Positions 7,419 to 28,368 are shown, counted from the first letter of the stretch. The stretch is DNA of 50,138 bases from Nanobdellota archaeon (GCA_027858295.1 JAQICZ010000012.1:1-50138); one strand, 5' to 3'. Notes: a model not told the origin generated them from the sequence alone. A program made the numbers and translations.

Positions 7419-7822
7419 GTGAATTGATAGAGGGTTGTTGGGTTAATGTGAAGGCATAGTTGGAATGTATTTTTGGTAGATAGTTTTGTGTAATTGTTAA
7501 TGGGGCAGAAGACAAATTCCTTCGCAAACTCAGTTGTTGGGGCAAGTTAAACTATCGCCTCTGGCAGGGACAAATATTGATGAGGTTTTTGGTGGTTGAG
7601 GGCAATGGATTGATAGTTAGGGTGAATTGATAGAGGGCCGTTGGGTTAATGTGCCGGCATATTTGGAGTAAATTTTTAGTGAGCCCGTAGCTAGATTTTG
7701 TCATGAAGTTATTATTCGTTTGTAATATTATTTTTTAAAATAGATTCGCTGCCGCTCATAATTGATAGAAGACAGTTAAGTTATCCTAAGGGCATACTTG
7801 GAGCGTTTATTTATGGCGGATA
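7419..7822. repeat. Three degenerate ~60-bp direct repeats
   Basis: GTGAATTGATAGAGGGTTGTTGGGTTAATGTGAAGGCATAGTTGGA (7419), GTGAATTGATAGAGGGCCGTTGGGTTAATGTGCCGGCATATTTGGA (7621), CATAATTGATAGAAGACAGTTAAGTTATCCTAAGGGCATACTTGGA (~7756). Confidence 0.8.
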
Positions 7823-7842
7823 TTTAATTCTATTTTTATAGA

Positions 7843-8113
7843 ATATTTGGTTATGATAAGTTGATTTTATAGAGCGGAACGGAGTGACCTCGTAAAATTA
7901 ATTTGGCAAATTGTCGCAGGGAATTTCCTCATAACTGTTGTTGTTTGACCAGAGGCAGAAGCCGAGAGCCTGCAAGGCGTGGCAAGAAATTATGGAATAA
8001 TTTCGTAGAGTTTTAATTTTTCTTTTCAGGTTGGGGGAAGACGGTGGGACGACCAATGTATTAGAGAGATAAGTCCGCTTTTTGTTTCTTTTTTCTAAAA
8101 AGAAAATGGGGAG
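7843..8113 (+). repeat. Type-B structured repeat, copy B1 (attC-like candidate) with long tail
   Basis: ATTTGGTTATGA...CTGTTGTTGTTTGACC...GAGAGCCTGCAAGGCGTGGCAAG...GAGAGATAAGTCCGC; tail closely matches 17237-17410. Confidence 0.8.
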
Positions 8114-8120
8114 TTCCTTT

Positions 8121-8771
8121 TTATAATTCAATTTCTAAATTTTCCACTTCTTCTTTTTCTGTAAGTAAATCAATTATTGTTATTTCCAAAAGATAAGTGC
8201 CAGAGTCATATTCGTCTAACTCAAGATTTATATTATAATGTAATTTACTTTGGGATTCATCAATATTCTCTACACAATTGGGGATTGAAGAGCAAAATCC
8301 TTTATCAATTCCAACATCCCAACTATTTACCCAAAGATTATTTCCATCTTCATCATATAATTTTTCGTAAATATGGATTTTGTAATAATTATCTTGTACT
8401 ACTCCAACAACAGAATAAGGTACTTTCCAAAAATAATTATTAACTTCTTCTATTTTATCGGTAAAAATATGTGGAGAATTATATTTTGGGGTAATTTCAC
8501 TTTTTTCTACTGAATTATTTTTTAATATTTCTTCATTCTTGTCCTCTTTGTTTTCAATTACTTTTTCAACTTCTTCATCTCTATCACAAATACTATTTGA
8601 GTTTTGGTCTAAACAACATTCAATTCCAACTTTTATGTAAGGAGAATTACAAATAATTTCATTTTGAGGATTGTTATTTGAATTTGAGATTAAAACAATA
8701 GCAAGAACTACAATGGCAACAATAGAAACACCAATCCAAAGATAATTATTATTTTTCTTTTTGTCTACCAT
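8121..8771 (-). CDS. Single-TM membrane-anchored extracellular protein, uncharacterised
   Basis: 216 aa; N-terminal TM (YLWIGVSIVAIVVLAIVLI) then polar Asn/Glu-rich region. Confidence 0.7.
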   Translation of the reverse strand: MVDKKKNNNYLWIGVSIVAIVVLAIVLISNSNNNPQNEIICNSPYIKVGIECCLDQNSNSICDRDEEVEKVIENKEDKNEEILKNNSVEKSEITPKYNSPHIFTDKIEEVNNYFWKVPYSVVGVVQDNYYKIHIYEKLYDEDGNNLWVNSWDVGIDKGFCSSIPNCVENIDESQSKLHYNINLELDEYDSGTYLLEITIIDLLTEKEEVENLEIEL

Positions 8772-8772
8772 T

Positions 8773-8916
8773 TTATTGTTTATTTTTTATATTATTTAAA
8801 CCTGATCTTTCAATTGAAATTATTATGCCCCAATAATAAATATCTTCTTTTGTAATATTTTTTACTCCTCGTTCATTCAATTCTTTTTTTATTTCTGATA
8901 TTGTAAGCTTATTCAT
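8773..8916 (-). CDS. 47-aa conserved micro-protein (IYYWGIIISIER family), paralog of 18494-18640
   Basis: MNKLTISEIKKELNERGVKNITKEDIYYWGIIISIERSGLNNIKNKQ; stop one base before the start of the 8121-8771 gene. Confidence 0.75.
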   Translation of the reverse strand: MNKLTISEIKKELNERGVKNITKEDIYYWGIIISIERSGLNNIKNKQ

Positions 8917-8922
8917 TTTAAT

Positions 8923-8974
8923 ACATTAATTAATGCAATATATTGTATTTAAATCTTACTGCACTAATTAATGT
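8923..8974. promoter_or_regulatory. Inverted-repeat operator candidate in divergent promoter
   Basis: ACATTAATTAATGC (8923-8936) and GCACTAATTAATGT (8961-8974), inverted with one mismatch, between two divergent start codons. Confidence 0.6.
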
Positions 8975-8977
8975 AGT

Positions 8978-9151
8978 ATGGTAGAAGTAAAATTACAGGA
9001 AAGAGTTTCGAAGCAAGGGAAGAATGAGTATAAGACTTATGTCGTGACCTTGCCGAAGATTATAATTGAGGCGATTCCGAATTTAGCTAAGACGAAAAAG
9101 TTTGATGTTGAAGTTGATGATGGGAAGATTGTTTTGATTCCTAAGAAATAA
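8978..9151 (+). CDS. AbrB/SpoVT-like small DNA-binding protein
   Basis: 57 aa MVEVKLQERVSKQGKNEYKTYVVTLPKIIIEAIPNLAKTKKFDVEVDDGKIVLIPKK; swapped-hairpin AbrB-like pattern. Confidence 0.7.
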   Translation: MVEVKLQERVSKQGKNEYKTYVVTLPKIIIEAIPNLAKTKKFDVEVDDGKIVLIPKK

Positions 9152-9193
9152 TTATATAGTAATGTTCTCAAGATTTAAATAATATCAATTGTA

Positions 9194-9427
9194 TTGATTA
9201 ACATGGAAGAAGAAACCCAGATTCAAATATTGATAAGTTCAATCATTGCATTAATTATTAATTTATCTTTTTCGATTACTCAAATTTTAAAAGAAGCCCT
9301 TACAGACATACCTTCAGTTGCAGGCTATGAATGGTTACATCCTTTCTTAATAATGTGCTTTTTTATTGCAGAGATTGCTGGGATTTATGGTTTATTATTT
9401 AAAATTTTAAATTTCGGAAATAATTAA
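9194..9427 (+). CDS. Small two-TM membrane protein
   Basis: 77-aa ORF with two hydrophobic segments. Confidence 0.6.
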   Translation: MINMEEETQIQILISSIIALIINLSFSITQILKEALTDIPSVAGYEWLHPFLIMCFFIAEIAGIYGLLFKILNFGNN

Positions 9428-9428
9428 T

Positions 9429-9869
9429 ATGGGAAATAAGGAAGTAGATTTATGGTCAATTGAAAGTCAAATTTATCCCATTTTGGATGCAAAAATGATG
9501 AGGAAAGAATTTTCGTTTAAAGATGAATTTGATTTAGGAGGTAATCAAAAGTTTTCCATAGCAGTTAATTCTAAAAATGGCTCTCCAGTTTCATTGCATC
9601 AACAATTTAATTCAAATGATATAGATTTTAAGATGGATTTTAGAAGTGACAAGGATAATTGGTTTAGAACAGATAATCAATCTCATGATTATTTGCATTT
9701 TCATTTAGAAAGTGGTGGACAACTATTTGATGATAGAATTAAGATGTCTGAAACAAATACTATTTCTGGATTAATTTCAGAAACTTTTGAAAAGGCTTCA
9801 AATATAATCTCTTGGAAGTTTCCAAGTTTCTTGGTTGTTTCTGGGACAGGTTTTGTTGGAACTGCTTAA
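9429..9869 (+). CDS. Hypothetical protein
   Basis: 146-aa ORF immediately after 9194-9427. Confidence 0.6.
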   Translation: MGNKEVDLWSIESQIYPILDAKMMRKEFSFKDEFDLGGNQKFSIAVNSKNGSPVSLHQQFNSNDIDFKMDFRSDKDNWFRTDNQSHDYLHFHLESGGQLFDDRIKMSETNTISGLISETFEKASNIISWKFPSFLVVSGTGFVGTA

Positions 9870-9877
9870 AAAAGATA

Positions 9878-10447
9878 TTAGTTCTCGAATAAATATTTTC
9901 TTACTTCCCGAATTAAGAATAAGATAGCCCAAGAAGCAAGAAAAGTTAGAATTAATTTTGTAACTCCTGACCAAAATTCAGGCTTTATTATTGGTTTAAC
10001 ATCTCTTCTTCCATATTCTACCACAATGGTTTTATTTTCTGCAATAAGGTCTCCAATATTAAAACTATTGCTTCCCTCTTGAATTAAAGTTTTTACTCCA
10101 AGATTCAAGTTTACAATTTCACAATATTTCCCTTCAGAGGTTATGTTAAATAGTTTAGTCTCTTCTCCATTTGTTAGTTGGGTACTATAAGGATATGACT
10201 TAGAACCTCCAGAATCTATGAAACAAAATTTATAATGGTCTGACCTGAACGGAATATTAATTATTTGCCTCAGAGAACATTTTAGAGATGGACAATCATC
10301 ATCCAAAGCCATAGCATTACCTCTTTTTTCAAACTGATAATTATTTGGATTAATTGAAGAAAAAATCCAAAGATAAATTAAAAGGGGTACTACTACGATT
10401 AAAAAGAATTTCCAACAAATTTTTTTAATCGTATTATTCTTTCTCAT
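9878..10447 (-). CDS. Membrane protein with N- and C-terminal TM segments, uncharacterised
   Basis: 189-aa ORF; two TM segments flanking an extracellular Cys-containing domain. Confidence 0.65.
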   Translation of the reverse strand: MRKNNTIKKICWKFFLIVVVPLLIYLWIFSSINPNNYQFEKRGNAMALDDDCPSLKCSLRQIINIPFRSDHYKFCFIDSGGSKSYPYSTQLTNGEETKLFNITSEGKYCEIVNLNLGVKTLIQEGSNSFNIGDLIAENKTIVVEYGRRDVKPIIKPEFWSGVTKLILTFLASWAILFLIREVRKYLFEN

Positions 10448-10483
10448 AAAAAAATAAAGGTTGCCTTTTTTATATATTTAATC

Positions 10484-10740
10484 ATCTGCGAAAGCCAAAC
10501 TATATATCCGCAGGATTAGGAACTCCCTATCAATGAAAAATTTGCGTGAGTGAAACGAACCTTTTATCCTTGGTTATGCGAAATTTTAATTTCGTTTGTT
10601 TTTTGGTTGTGGTCGGATAAAAGAAGTTCTTATATTTTTGTCTAAGACAAAAACTATTTGTCCGAAGGACTGCGGGCTTATCTCTCGTCTCGTTGGGGTG
10701 GGAAAGAAAAGAAAAATTAAAATTTGGGCGAAGCCAAGCA
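10484..10740. repeat. Type-A structured element, copy A1
   Basis: Highly similar to 19862-20104; internal hairpins; tail GCGGGCTTATCTCTC...GAAAAGAAAAATTAAAA is inverted relative to the B1 tail. Confidence 0.8.
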
Positions 10741-10821
10741 ACAAGTTGGCGGAAGAAGTTTTCTATTTGTTCTATAGGCTTTGCAGTGGAAGTGGGCTCG
10801 TTCCTTGTGGAAAGATTAATT

Positions 10822-11287: not shown

Positions 11288-12047
11288 TGATGGATGTTGC
11301 TGTGAAAATCATTAAGAAATGTTTCAGGAAAGCATAGAGGAAATATTCACAGGTTGGGGTTATTTGTGTTTTGCATCCGTTTGAAAGGGACCTAGTTTTC
11401 AAGCCACATGTTCATGTGATTGCTACGAATGGCGGATTTGCTGAAGATAATAAGTTTGTAAAATTGGGTTTTATTAGTTACGATTTGTTGCATAAGACTT
11501 GGCAATATAATCTTTTTATGGAGTTAAAAAATATATTTCAAAGAGGATTACCGATTGCTGTTTTGATAAATATCCTAGAGGTTTTGCTTGCTATTTGAAG
11601 CCTGAGGTTATTTGGTCTAATAAATTTTTGTCGAAATATATTGGTAGGTATTTGAGGCATCCTGCGATTGCGAATTCTCGGATTGTTTTTTATGATAGGG
11701 AGATTGTTCGGTTTTATTATTTGGATCACAAGACCAAAAAGAGGGTTATTTGTGAGATGAAGGTTTTTGATTTTATCGCTTCGGTTGTTCAACATATTCC
11801 CAATAAGAATTTTAAGATGATTCGTTATTATGGCTTGTATTCTCGGAAGGGTGTGAAGAAGGTCTGTGAGATTTGTTTACAGTCATCTTTAAAGGAAGAA
11901 GTTTTATTTGCTGAGAATGAGGTTTTTTGGTGTCCTTGTTGTTTTGAGAAGATGATTTTTGTTGCTTATTTCAAGAATCCGCCTGATGATTTGGTTTTAA
12001 GGGTTAAAGATGGAAGGTTTTTTCAGATGGGCACCCGAAGGGCCTAA
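11288..12047 (+). pseudogene. IS91-family (Y2/HUH-like) transposase remnant
   Basis: HPFERDLVFKPHVHVIATNGGF...ISYDLLHKTWQYNLF (frame 1) continues as CCFDKYPRGFACYL...KYIGRYLRHPAIANSRI...IRYYGLYSR...C (frame 3); frameshift near 11555 and an in-frame TAG upstream. Confidence 0.75.
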
Positions 12048-17151: not shown

Positions 17152-17410
17152 AAACTAACATTTGGTTATGAAAAGCTCTTTGGAGTGTAGCGGAGAAAAT
17201 TTGGGAAAATCTAACAGGGATTTTCTCTTTAACTGTTGTTAAGTCGTGCGAGCGAAGTGAGAGCCTGCAAGGCGGTGTCGAGAAATTATGAAATAATTTT
17301 TGCAGAGTTTTAATCTTTCTTTTCAGGTTTGGGGAGGACGGTGGGACGACCAATGTATTAGAGAGATAAGCCCACTTTTTGTTTCTTTTTTTTAAAAAGA
17401 AAATGGGGAG
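17152..17410 (+). repeat. Type-B structured repeat, copy B2 with long tail
   Basis: AACTAAC (17152) ATTTGGTTATGA...TTGGGAAAATC..GGGATTTTCTC...GTTAAGT (17237)...GAGAGCCTGCAAGGCG...GAGAGATAAGCCCAC. Confidence 0.8.
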
Positions 17411-17454
17411 TTCTTTTTTGCCTTCTTTTTTCTAAAAGAAGTTTAGAATTAAAA

Positions 17455-18492
17455 TTATTTTAATTGAAGTTTAGATTTTGAATATTCGACATAACAAATT
17501 CCTTGTTCATTGGTGTTTTTAATCAAAGAACAAACATTCGAATTAATATTTTGATTCGTTTCATCCATGGATTCAACTGCAGATATTATGCAATTTGATT
17601 TTATAGGATTTAAACAAATATCTAAATTTACACTTCTTCCGTATTGTTCAATGCAAGAATCTATATGAGCTTCATCGCTCCTTTCTTGACAAAATGAAAC
17701 ATCATTCGTTAAAAGTGATAAAGCCAAAATACAAGAATCCCTTCTATTGTTTTTAATCAACAAGCATTTATTAGACTCTTTATTATTCATAGCTTGACAA
17801 AGTAAACAATCGCTTTCTTCCGATTCATCTTCATATGTTGAACAATCTTGGTTATTATATTCAGATTTACAATTATTCCCATATACAGCAATAATAGTTT
17901 CTTCTTCTGTTCTCTTTAAACTTTCTTCAATAGTATTTAATGAATTTAAACAATCCTTTTCTGATAATCCAAACTTAACATCTCCTTCGCTATCTACTAA
18001 TCCATCATTTTTGACTTCTTGTTCTTTCTGCTCAATTAAGTCACATGCTTCTTTCTCTTGGTAAAATTGCATATAATTTCGCAGACACCATATTTCTGAT
18101 TCTAAGTCTATTGAATACGCACATTGGTTCATATCTTTTGTTGCTATTGCTTCACATTTCCATCTTAATTTTTTATCTTCTATTTTTATGCAATTATTTT
18201 CTTCTGTATGTATGGAAAGAATATAATAACATTCATCAATATCATCTTTCCCAGAAGGATTTCCATTGCTAAATGATTCACATAAATATGAATTTGTATC
18301 TTTATATGCTTGACATCTTTTTTGCCAAACTTCATTATCAGTATCAAGACAATAATTATTATCTAAAGAACTCGTTGGTTTTGAGTTATTATTATTTGAA
18401 TCAGTAATTGTTTCTTGATTTTGAGGAAGAAAAATTAATATTAAAAGAACCACGCAAGCTATTCCTATTATTCCAGTTGTTATTTTATTCAT
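17455..18492 (-). CDS. Single-TM membrane-anchored Cys-rich extracellular protein
   Basis: N-terminal TM (ITTGIIGIACVVLLILIFL), Cys/Glu-rich; start at MNKITTG fits linkage with the upstream micro-protein. Confidence 0.75.
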   Translation of the reverse strand: MNKITTGIIGIACVVLLILIFLPQNQETITDSNNNNSKPTSSLDNNYCLDTDNEVWQKRCQAYKDTNSYLCESFSNGNPSGKDDIDECYYILSIHTEENNCIKIEDKKLRWKCEAIATKDMNQCAYSIDLESEIWCLRNYMQFYQEKEACDLIEQKEQEVKNDGLVDSEGDVKFGLSEKDCLNSLNTIEESLKRTEEETIIAVYGNNCKSEYNNQDCSTYEDESEESDCLLCQAMNNKESNKCLLIKNNRRDSCILALSLLTNDVSFCQERSDEAHIDSCIEQYGRSVNLDICLNPIKSNCIISAVESMDETNQNINSNVCSLIKNTNEQGICYVEYSKSKLQLK

Positions 18493-18493
18493 C

Positions 18494-18640
18494 TTATTTT
18501 TTGTTGTTAACAATATTATTTAAACTTAATCGTTCAATAGAAATTATTATGCCCCAATAATAAATATCTTCTTTTATAATATTTTTTATTCCTCTTTCTT
18601 TTAATTCTTGTTTTATTTTTTGTAATGTTAGTTTTTTCAT
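18494..18640 (-). CDS. 48-aa conserved micro-protein (IYYWGIIISIER family), paralog of 8773-8916
   Basis: MKKLTLQKIKQELKERGIKNIIKEDIYYWGIIISIERLSLNNIVNNKK; start overlaps the preceding ORF stop (ATGA). Confidence 0.8.
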   Translation of the reverse strand: MKKLTLQKIKQELKERGIKNIIKEDIYYWGIIISIERLSLNNIVNNKK

Positions 18641-18789
18641 TTTGAGCATAAGACTAAAATTTTTATGTAGTCTTCCCAGTTTAATTTTTCATATTTGTGA
18701 TTCTTTATGTAACGATTTTTTCTTTTTTTCATTATTCCAAATGTTGATTCGTCGAATTTTAGGGAGAGATGTTTTTGTTTCATATTCAT
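18637..18789 (-). CDS. 50-aa basic small protein, possible regulator/antitoxin-like
   Basis: MNMKQKHLSLKFDESTFGIMKKRKNRYIKNHKYEKLNWEDYIKILVLCSK; coupled by ATGA to 18494-18640. Confidence 0.55.
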   Translation of the reverse strand: MNMKQKHLSLKFDESTFGIMKKRKNRYIKNHKYEKLNWEDYIKILVLCSK

Positions 18790-18848
18790 TACACCAAATA
18801 TGGTAAATCATATTAATATATAAACCTTACCCTTAAAATGGTGTAATG
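18787..18848. promoter_or_regulatory. Perfect 10-bp inverted repeat covering both divergent start codons
   Basis: CATTACACCA (18787-18796) and TGGTGTAATG (18839-18848). Confidence 0.7.
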
Positions 18849-19115
18849 ACGACTAAAATCCTTCTCCAAAATGAGAAATTATTTTCTAAAATAAAGATAG
18901 TTTCGAATAGATTTAGGTTTAAGATTTTGGAATTGACCCAAGATGAATCATTAAGTATTTCCAAATTAGGCTCTACTTTAAAACTTGCTTATACAAAATG
19001 TGCGGATTATGTGAGTATGTTGGAAAAAGAAGGACTTATTGAGAAAACAAAAGATGGAAAGGAAGTTTTAGTCAGGAGTAAGGTTAAGATAAAAGAGGGG
19101 CAGGTTATTTTTTAA
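18846..19115 (+). CDS. Winged-HTH (ArsR-like) transcriptional regulator
   Basis: RFKILELTQDESLSISKLGSTLKLAYTKCADYVSMLEKEGLIEKTKDGKEVLVRS. Confidence 0.75.
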   Translation: MTTKILLQNEKLFSKIKIVSNRFRFKILELTQDESLSISKLGSTLKLAYTKCADYVSMLEKEGLIEKTKDGKEVLVRSKVKIKEGQVIF

Positions 19116-19131
19116 AACGGAAGTATTTTAC

Positions 19132-19797
19132 TTATTGCCATCCATGTTGTTTATCACCATCTAGATTTAATTTAAAAATTTCTTTGTCAATTATTTTTAA
19201 ATGCTTGAAAATAGCCTTGATATTTTTTAGTGTTCTTTCATCATCTTTTAGTTCAATATACAACGCTAAGCTATTCAGTCTTTCAATAATTTCTGAGATA
19301 TTCAATATCAAATTATGTGATAAATGGTTTACATTTAATGAAGTTAAATCGACTAATTTTGTTTTATATCCAATAAATAATTTATTAGAATCGATCTTTT
19401 TTTTGTAATAATCAAGATACTCATCATTTAAAACCAGTTTATCAATTTTTTCAAAAATATCCTCATAGTTATTAGCCCTAATGCCTCTTTCTGAAAAATT
19501 AACTAAATGTTCTAAATCAATGTATATGTATGTAAATAATCTTTTTAAAATTGGTGAAAACTTTATAAGATATTTTTTCTTGAATTTCTTTTTTTGTCTA
19601 GATGAGTTATAATTAATAAATAAAATTGCGATAAATACTCCAAATAACGATGAATAAATTGCTTGCATAAAAATTTTCCATTCTAAAAATTTTAAACCAA
19701 TTATATATGAAATAAAAAGTAGGGAAGCAATTATTATTAAAGTAGATTTACTATTATTGATTTCAATTTCATCTAATCCCGATTTAATAAATGACAT
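19132..19797 (-). CDS. Two-TM membrane protein, uncharacterised
   Basis: 221-aa ORF with N-terminal TM pair and helical cytosolic part. Confidence 0.65.
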   Translation of the reverse strand: MSFIKSGLDEIEINNSKSTLIIIASLLFISYIIGLKFLEWKIFMQAIYSSLFGVFIAILFINYNSSRQKKKFKKKYLIKFSPILKRLFTYIYIDLEHLVNFSERGIRANNYEDIFEKIDKLVLNDEYLDYYKKKIDSNKLFIGYKTKLVDLTSLNVNHLSHNLILNISEIIERLNSLALYIELKDDERTLKNIKAIFKHLKIIDKEIFKLNLDGDKQHGWQ

Positions 19798-19861
19798 AAA
19801 TTGAAAGATGTTTGCAAAATTATAAAGCTTGTGTTAATGCTTTTTGTTGGAAAATAATTAA

Positions 19862-20104
19862 TTCTCGGAGAAAGCTAAACTATCTATCCGAAGGATTAGG
19901 AGCTCCCATTATCAATGAAAAATTTGCGTGAGTGAAACGAGCCTTTTATCCTCGGTTATGCGAAATTTTAATTTCGTGGTTTGGTTTTCGTTGGTCGGAT
20001 AAAAGAAGTTTTTCTATTTTGTCGAAGACAAAAAGCTATTTGTCTGGAGGACTGCGGGCTTATCTCTCGTATCGTTAGGGTGGGAAGAAAAGAAAAATTA
20101 AATT
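19862..20104. repeat. Type-A structured element, copy A2
   Basis: Near-identical blocks with 10484-10740: ATCAATGAAAAATTTGCGTGAGTGAAACGA, CTTTTATCC, GGTTATGCGAAATTTTAATTTCGT, GGACTGCGGGCTTATCTCTCGT. Confidence 0.85.
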
Positions 20105-20378
20105 TTAGCGACGGAGGAGCGACAACAAACCTATTATTATATTTTGCGACGAGATTATTGTTAGTTGAGAATTTTAATAGAGCAATTTATGTCTGCATTG
20201 TACGGATAAGATTGTGCCTTGCTCATGGATGAGCTTTCATATCAATACTAAGCAGTATAGCAATAAAGAGCTGAAATGAATTTTGAGAGTCAGTATCTAG
20301 CTGTAATGCAGTAATTTTGATTAAATTGCATAGTAGATATAAAATTAAAATGTTAATTTGATCGAGGACAAAAAGTAT

Positions 20379-20892: not shown

Positions 20893-21060
20893 GGCAGGTT
20901 GACATGTTTAGTTAGATTAAGGCTACCAATGGCATAACCCGATATGGGAAGCTGGGCCTCGGTTAAATTATTCCTCGCAGTTGTGCATGAGAATTATTGA
21001 TGGCTACTCAATTTAGACTTATCAGAGCTTAGTACTGTCCCTTATAATCTAAGGAAAATC
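20893..21060. ncRNA. Conserved intergenic element type C, copy C1 (possible structured RNA; strand unknown)
   Basis: TACCAATGGCATAACCCGATATGGGAAGCTGGGCCTCGGTTAAATTATTCCTCGC; near-identical to 49859-49960 over ~100 nt. Confidence 0.5.
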
Positions 21061-28150: not shown

Positions 28151-28300
28151 TTTTAACATTTGGTTAAAGAAAGTTCTTTGAAGTGCAACGGAAAAGAATT
28201 TGGGAAAATCTTGCAAGGATTTTCTCTTTAACTCTTGTTCATTTCTCCTAGGCGTAAGTCGAGAGCCTTTAAAGCGTGGCAAGCGAGATTAATTTTAGAC
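28151..28300 (+). repeat. Type-B structured repeat, copy B3 (attC-like candidate)
   Basis: TTTTAAC (28151) ATTTGGTTAAAGAAAGTTCTTTG...GGGAAAATCTTGCAAGGATTTTCTC...GTTCATT (28237)...GAGAGCCTTTAAAGCGTGGCAAG. Confidence 0.8.
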
Positions 28301-28368
28301 AAATTTTAAAGGGGGCGTTTTTGACTTTTTTAGTTAATTTAATAAAAGATGAAGCTAATTATTTTATT

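Follow-up and report, generated by a model that had tools for sequence, protein, structure and literature searches.

Two modules of the same layout lie 7 kb apart in the window, here the whole stretch of 50,138 nt of Nanobdellota archaeon DNA that was analyzed, and raise the question of what kind of element they are. The initial annotation proposed a recurring family of genetic elements. This proposal holds, and it missed the cassette ends, the attC-like left junction, an array at 28-33 kb and a dedicated recombinase. We consider it very probable, on the sequence evidence given below, that DPANN archaea have an integron-like system with a dedicated XerA-like tyrosine recombinase, and that module 2 is one of its gene cassettes.

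Module 2 had been described as a segment B2 at the left and a segment A2 at the right with nested inverted tails, and this description is correct. B1 (8001-8122) and B2 (17298-17419) are 93% identical across 122 nt, and A1 (10474-10725) and A2 (19854-20106) are 87.5% identical in 257 columns (about 85-88%). The right tails originally reported are exact; the left tails (P1 and P2 below) lie one base to the right of the positions first given. We identified a third, inner tail pair (GGGGAGTTC/GAGCTCCC, P3 and P3') and an outermost short pair (GTTGT at 17235-17239 and ACAAC at 20122-20126). B is predicted to comprise the right-hand half of an attC-like recombination site and the cassette start, and A the cassette end. 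The edges of module 2 were set by the boundary rule obtained from shared cassettes of other genomes. The features are:

17157..20126, + strand: module 2 cassette, written along the array strand; it runs from the AAC of the attC-like site to the closing AAC and was placed from sequence
17157..17240, + strand: attC-like site with TAAC box, L-box stem GGTTATGAAAAG/CTCTTTAAC, inner hairpin and TGTTGTT
17235..17419, + strand: predicted cassette start B2, with P0 (GTTGT), P1 (17308-17324), P2 (17361-17375) and P3 (17405-17413)
17455..18513, - strand: cargo, 352-aa membrane-anchored protein without a Pfam family
18494..18649, - strand: cargo, 51-aa micro-ORF (IYYWGIIISIER), with 73% identity to its counterpart in module 1
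18846..19115, + strand: cargo, 89-aa winged-helix regulator (HTH_24, above cut-off)
19132..19797, - strand: cargo, 221-aa protein without a Pfam family
19854..20126, + strand: predicted cassette end A2, with P3' (19900-19907), P2' (20054-20068), P1' (20087-20102) and terminal CGACAAC
7842..10742, + strand: module 1, a cassette of the module 2 type, with site 7842-7942, start GTTGTTTGACC and end GCCAAGCAAC

The attC-like site of module 2 matches the site profile at 4e-17 (nhmmer), and its fold was also computed. A2 contains a covarying stem (CTTTTATCC/GGATAAAAG). The gene order follows that of module 1, as had been noted: a membrane protein (-), a micro-ORF of 51 or 47 aa (-) and a small regulator (+). 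The regulators differ (winged helix in module 2, MazE-like in module 1), and comparison of the membrane proteins of the two modules revealed no significant similarity. Common cargo was considered as the source of the similarity between the modules and rejected, because the membrane proteins are unrelated. The micro-ORF occurs in only two copies in the genome, one per module; homologues of its product were sought in 24 relatives and none was convincing, and thus we do not regard it as defining cargo. Both copies (8773-8916, 47 aa; 18494-18649, 51 aa) have a SAP-like start, LxxxxIKxELxERGxKN, and the conserved IYYWGIIISIER motif. A tRNA scan found none.

One local segmental duplication could also account for two similar modules. 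This is ruled out, as the search suggested for further B...A pairs found them with different cargo in seven related genomes (G003, G007, G010, G012, G020, G022, G035). A is present in 11 of 39 related genomes and B in 14 of 24. In the pairs, B always precedes A on one strand, at a distance of about 0.7-4 kb, and genes between or beside them include a RelE-type toxin-antitoxin pair, a DNA methylase with a restriction enzyme, winged-helix regulators and membrane proteins. Many A and B matches are at contig ends, as is the case for repeats. A and B of the same cassette are complementary over 35.8 nt in exact 9-mers vs 14.3 nt for ends taken from other cassettes (0/20000 permutations). Chance is excluded, since A and B pair within their own cassette and both recur in many other genomes. 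A solitary A end, probably a cassette relic, was found on another contig of the same assembly (C56; L006, 3672-3895), between a 748-aa gene and a phosphoglycerate-mutase-like gene; no B was detected there.

The sequence to the left of B reveals that B is the continuation of a shorter site, which is found again at 28-33 kb of the window in seven copies that separate six genes:

28155..28239, + strand: attC-like site S1 of this second array, from the nhmmer site profile
29458..29538, + strand: attC-like site S2, nhmmer site profile
30197..30282, + strand: attC-like site S3, nhmmer site profile
30815..30894, + strand: attC-like site S4, weak in nhmmer
31452..31530, + strand: attC-like site S5, nhmmer site profile
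32401..32483, + strand: attC-like site S6, nhmmer site profile
33331..33413, + strand: attC-like site S7, nhmmer site profile
28276..33262, mixed strands: genes of the S1-S7 cassettes, a U32-like peptidase (+), DUF5694-like protein (-), 122-aa ORF (+), NADAR domain protein (-), methyltransferase (-) and NAD epimerase (-)

The site has the layout TAAC-AT(CG)-stem-AAGT-hairpin-ATTTGGG-hairpin-stem-(TGC)TGTT, and the same fold occurs in many genomes. Its profile has 67 instances below 1e-3 in 570 kb of searched DNA, all on one strand within each array, and sites measure 65-200 nt from AAC to GTT. In an alignment of 25 sites, 14 of the 23 consensus pairs show compensatory changes, and AAC and GTT are nearly invariant. 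As in integrons, R boxes (AAC/GTT) and covarying L boxes fold into a hairpin, and the cassettes form tandem arrays with one site each. The canonical consensus RYYYAAC/GTTRRRY is only partly followed. A structure-only scan (AAC...stem...stem...GTT) gave low-scoring hits, 173 and 127 on the two strands vs about 121 in shuffled sequences, and is not specific at such scores; sites were therefore drawn from the sequence profile and then curated.

The strong covariation and nested helices could also be those of a large structured non-coding RNA, in which B and A form one molecule that hosts genes in its loop. We give this reading almost no credence: a search of the 50,138-nt window against Rfam gave no match, and an RNA leaves unexplained the genes on both strands, the linkage to a recombinase and the precisely bounded cassettes shared between genomes.

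If the modules are gene cassettes, the two kinds of box in a site should differ in their partners. The circle excised in an integron carries one complete site: the stem is kept within a site, and the outer box at the start of a cassette pairs with the outer box at the end of the same cassette, located at the next site. We compared 63 curated sites and 40 cassettes. Outer (end) boxes of the same cassette are complementary at 3.75 of 6 positions vs 2.57 for random pairs (0/5000 permutations), and show no excess of complementarity within one site (p 0.29). Stem (L) boxes of the same site are complementary at 7.32 of 8 positions vs 6.25 (0/5000 permutations), and show no excess within one cassette (p 0.89). 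Thus, we infer that crossover occurs at the AAC side, in array-strand orientation. End boxes match poorly (scores below 5 of 6) in 25 of the 40 cassettes, several of them inside the window. Four end-box entries, from L072 and L074, were mis-specified (compact sites without AAC) and left in, which lowers the same-cassette score; the other poorly matching end boxes may have decayed. In one cassette of G022 (L066, minus strand, about 12455-8899), A and B are perfectly complementary over 55 nt, far longer than elsewhere, which suggests recent copying of one end onto the other.

Cassettes common to different arrays, which we read as traces of past movement, show where the units begin and end. L181 has three identical copies of a 213-bp cassette without genes. 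Their flanks differ and their edges fall exactly at AAC; two copies are in tandem beside the attI-like site and one is elsewhere in the array. L181 and L186 have in common a three-gene cassette of about 2.5 kb (84-88% identical DNA) in which homology is bounded by AAC on both sides. A one-gene cassette found in G035 and G015, which belong to different families, encodes proteins of 92% identity, with correlated changes at its two ends (GTTAAATTC/GAGTTTAAC vs GTTAATTG/CAATTAA). As in integrons, cassette boundaries are at the core box, and both ends of a cassette would derive from one circle.

These boundaries also bear on the possibility that the modules are cargo-carrying, non-autonomous transposons (MITE-like or IS91/IS200-like) framed by long inverted terminal repeats, as might be supposed from the nested inverted tails at both ends, the relic of a Y2 transposase (PF04986, 11371-12044) between the two modules and the scattering of single modules between housekeeping genes. 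Homology stops at the AAC boxes, not at the inverted tails; the boxes that bound the mobile unit lie outside the repeats. The occurrence, in many genomes, of tandem arrays that have junction sites in common and lie next to a tyrosine recombinase also speaks against transposons, as do the different pairing rules of end and stem boxes, which are not predicted for a transposon end. We consider transposons a highly improbable explanation.

The arrays are accompanied by a candidate enzyme. Tyrosine recombinases are encoded directly downstream of arrays, on the same strand, in G003, G010, G012, G015, G017, G022, G028 and G035, and the same succession of array and tyrosine recombinase on one strand is found on two contigs (C12 and C54) of the window's own assembly. 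The recombinase reads away from the array, as in bacterial integrons. Sites are present at 16 of 21 loci of this second recombinase vs none of 16 XerA loci, and at none of 59 bacterial loci. Nearly all archaeal relatives of the G010 enzyme for which upstream DNA is available have sites upstream; two more distant archaeal relatives, L188 and L193, have no upstream array, and L179 has only a weak hit on the opposite strand. The linked recombinases of G022 (G022:C7) and L181 group together at 100/97, apart from those of the window's genus, which suggests exchange of whole platforms.

Almost all linked recombinases that were inspected have a conserved attI-like TAAC↓A box with a hairpin immediately upstream. 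At the array end, the last cassette closes in a TAAC-type box, followed by the hairpin and the recombinase gene. The hairpin is often an 11-6-11 palindrome, e.g., GATTATCAATA-GTTTAT-TATTGATAATC. The location corresponds to that of attI, which adjoins the integrase gene at the start of an integron array, and the TAAC box would be the insertion point.

Given so many shared features (small-cassette arrays, an attachment site beside an end-encoded tyrosine recombinase that points away from the array, folded AAC/GTT sites, ends matched within a cassette, cargo such as toxin-antitoxin and restriction-modification genes and small proteins, and integrase-less clusters), the system might be a canonical integron (IntI integrase and attC sites) in another archaeal group. 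IntI-type integrons have been reported in archaeal MAGs, including attC clusters of Nanoarchaeota (PMC9668308). However, the array recombinases lack the ~44-residue insert specific to IntI, which integron recombination is said to require (PMC9668308). Between the KGxxR and LRHSFA motifs, the array enzymes have 65-71 residues and IntI 109-110, and residues 200-241 of IntI4 (2a3v) have no counterpart. No array recombinase reaches the cut-off of the IntI model TIGR02249, and matches skip profile positions of about 184-236. In a tree, the sampled IntIs form their own clade and array enzymes stand apart, except for the long-branch G015_C4. Placement of the integrases within IntI was rejected, as only G015_C4 weakly joins the clade, and it too lacks the insert. 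Unlike the mostly one-orientation promoterless cassettes of integrons, which are transcribed from a platform promoter, these cassettes have ORFs with no orientation bias (65 with and 70 against the array strand, counting ORF strand only). They also have long inverted A/B extensions of the site (about 100-250 nt each per cassette), absent from canonical attC. A canonical IntI integron is ruled out for the recombinases examined and, as an overall explanation, is very unlikely. Because this defining feature of the integrase is missing, we do not file the system as a canonical integron; it is best described as an integron-like cassette system with a XerA-like integrase that would work like an integron.

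The best family match of the array recombinases is archaeal XerA (PDB 4a8e, 5hxy), with which they share length and domain layout; they score above the threshold of NF040815, the archaeal XerA model, titled by NCBI site-specific tyrosine recombinase/integron integrase. In dif (pdif) modules, Xer recombinases move genes that lie between Xer sites. If the host XerA moved modules that have dif sites at their ends, an enzyme of the Xer type would likewise act on genes enclosed by its own sites. The dif-like 11-6-11 palindrome before several recombinase genes is in line with this, as are compact junctions (TAA-GCCCTG-TTA) in the G017 and G015 arrays. However, the genomes have a separate XerA, which forms a single clade (100/99) and is never beside sites; the array enzyme is a paralogue outside this clade that adjoins arrays, not the housekeeping enzyme and not a single-copy orthologue without cassettes. 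Further, dif sites measure 28 bp, whereas the sites here (65-200 nt) are large, folded and directly repeated. Movement by the host XerA thus has little to recommend it, and we retain the integron-like system with its own recombinase. The compact junctions, which have no folded middle (L072, 7526-7560 and 8268-8300; L074, minus strand, about 8740), are possibly a minimal, dif-like version of the site. The linked recombinases of these genomes (L072, L074) form a separate clade.

In the proposed mechanism, a cassette on the array strand would consist of the attC-like site (AAC, spacer, L stem, hairpins, L stem, spacer, GTT), B, one or more genes on either strand, A and the closing AA↓C. The recombinase encoded beside the array would catalyze excision of cassettes as circles, in which the AAC at the end of A is joined to the attC-like site, so that the A and B segments of a cassette lengthen a single large folded hairpin, presumably recognized as a single strand. 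The circle would then be reinserted at the attI-like TAAC box just upstream of the recombinase gene, or at other sites.

The cassettes carry diverse genes. Matches at 1e-5 assign 131 cassette ORFs to 82 Pfam families, few of which occur more than once, and include methyltransferases, N6 and C5 DNA methylases, a TdeIII enzyme, GmrSD, PemK/MazF toxins, thioredoxins and ABC transporters. PADLOC models for restriction and MADS components were also matched. The system appears widespread in DPANN archaea. A strict 21-bp pattern for the left half of the site was found in 53 of 211 genomes of the order (1 for the reversed control) and 84 of 382 genomes of the phylum (0 for the reversed control); genome-wide counts for the window's own genome rest on searches. 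Titled relatives of the enzyme are in records for Pacearchaeota, Nanoarchaeota, Aenigmatarchaeota and Nanohalarchaeota. Judged by its relatives, the organism of the window may belong to Pacearchaeota. Record titles need to be read with care, as 3 kb of L181 (titled Parvarchaeum) match G040 without a difference, and G040 is assigned to the same family as the window.

A screen of 6718 archaeal genomes reported 75 with integrons, with IntI integrases that have the IntI-specific domain; most were CALINs, and attC sites were reported in Nanoarchaeota and Aenigmatarchaeota (PMC9668308). Some of these Nanoarchaeota and Aenigmatarchaeota attC sites may belong to the present system. In a search in which most subscription papers and preprints were outside reach, that paper was the only one found on archaeal integrons, and no description of the present system was found; a review of archaeal tyrosine recombinases does not mention DPANN cassettes (PMC8371274). 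There is an even chance, in our estimate, that this is a widespread DPANN analogue of the integron that arose from XerA-type recombinases independently of IntI, and in which the long A/B extensions let an enzyme without the insert recognize the folded strand. A system working without the IntI insert would represent another way to use folded sites and would bear on the origin of integrons from Xer recombinases. It would also be a general platform for sharing genes (e.g., restriction, toxin-antitoxin and surface genes) among small-genome, probably symbiotic archaea, and DPANN cassette exchange would be directly searchable in existing metagenomes.

In ten congeners, the interval from the gene of ribosomal protein S6e to aIF2-gamma is about 0.5-4.5 kb and contains no sites. 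In the window it is 13.5 kb, occupied by both modules, a broken Y2 transposase and two large surface proteins. No alignment with congeners was obtained for a precise empty site at S6e, as they are too diverged (S6e 55-66% identity). The contig that carries both modules and the 28-33 kb array encodes no recombinase, and the two array-linked recombinases elsewhere in the assembly carry a stop or are in fragments, and look broken. Integrase-less clusters of bacteria are known as CALINs. From the lack of a recombinase on the contig and the state of the linked recombinases, the arrays of the window resemble such clusters and may be decaying; end boxes elsewhere match better than theirs.

The broken transposase between modules 1 and 2 (PF04986, IS91-like) spans 11371-12047 in two frames. 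Just left of module 1 are three degenerate copies of a 59-nt repeat (GTGAATTGATAGAGGG...) at 7419-7477, 7622-7680 and 7757-7815, which do not belong to the cassette sites. An intergenic repeat, ACCAATGGCATAACCCGATATGGGAAGCTGGGCCTC, is present in three copies of 84-90% identity, at 20917-20978, 49660-49721 and 49882-49943.
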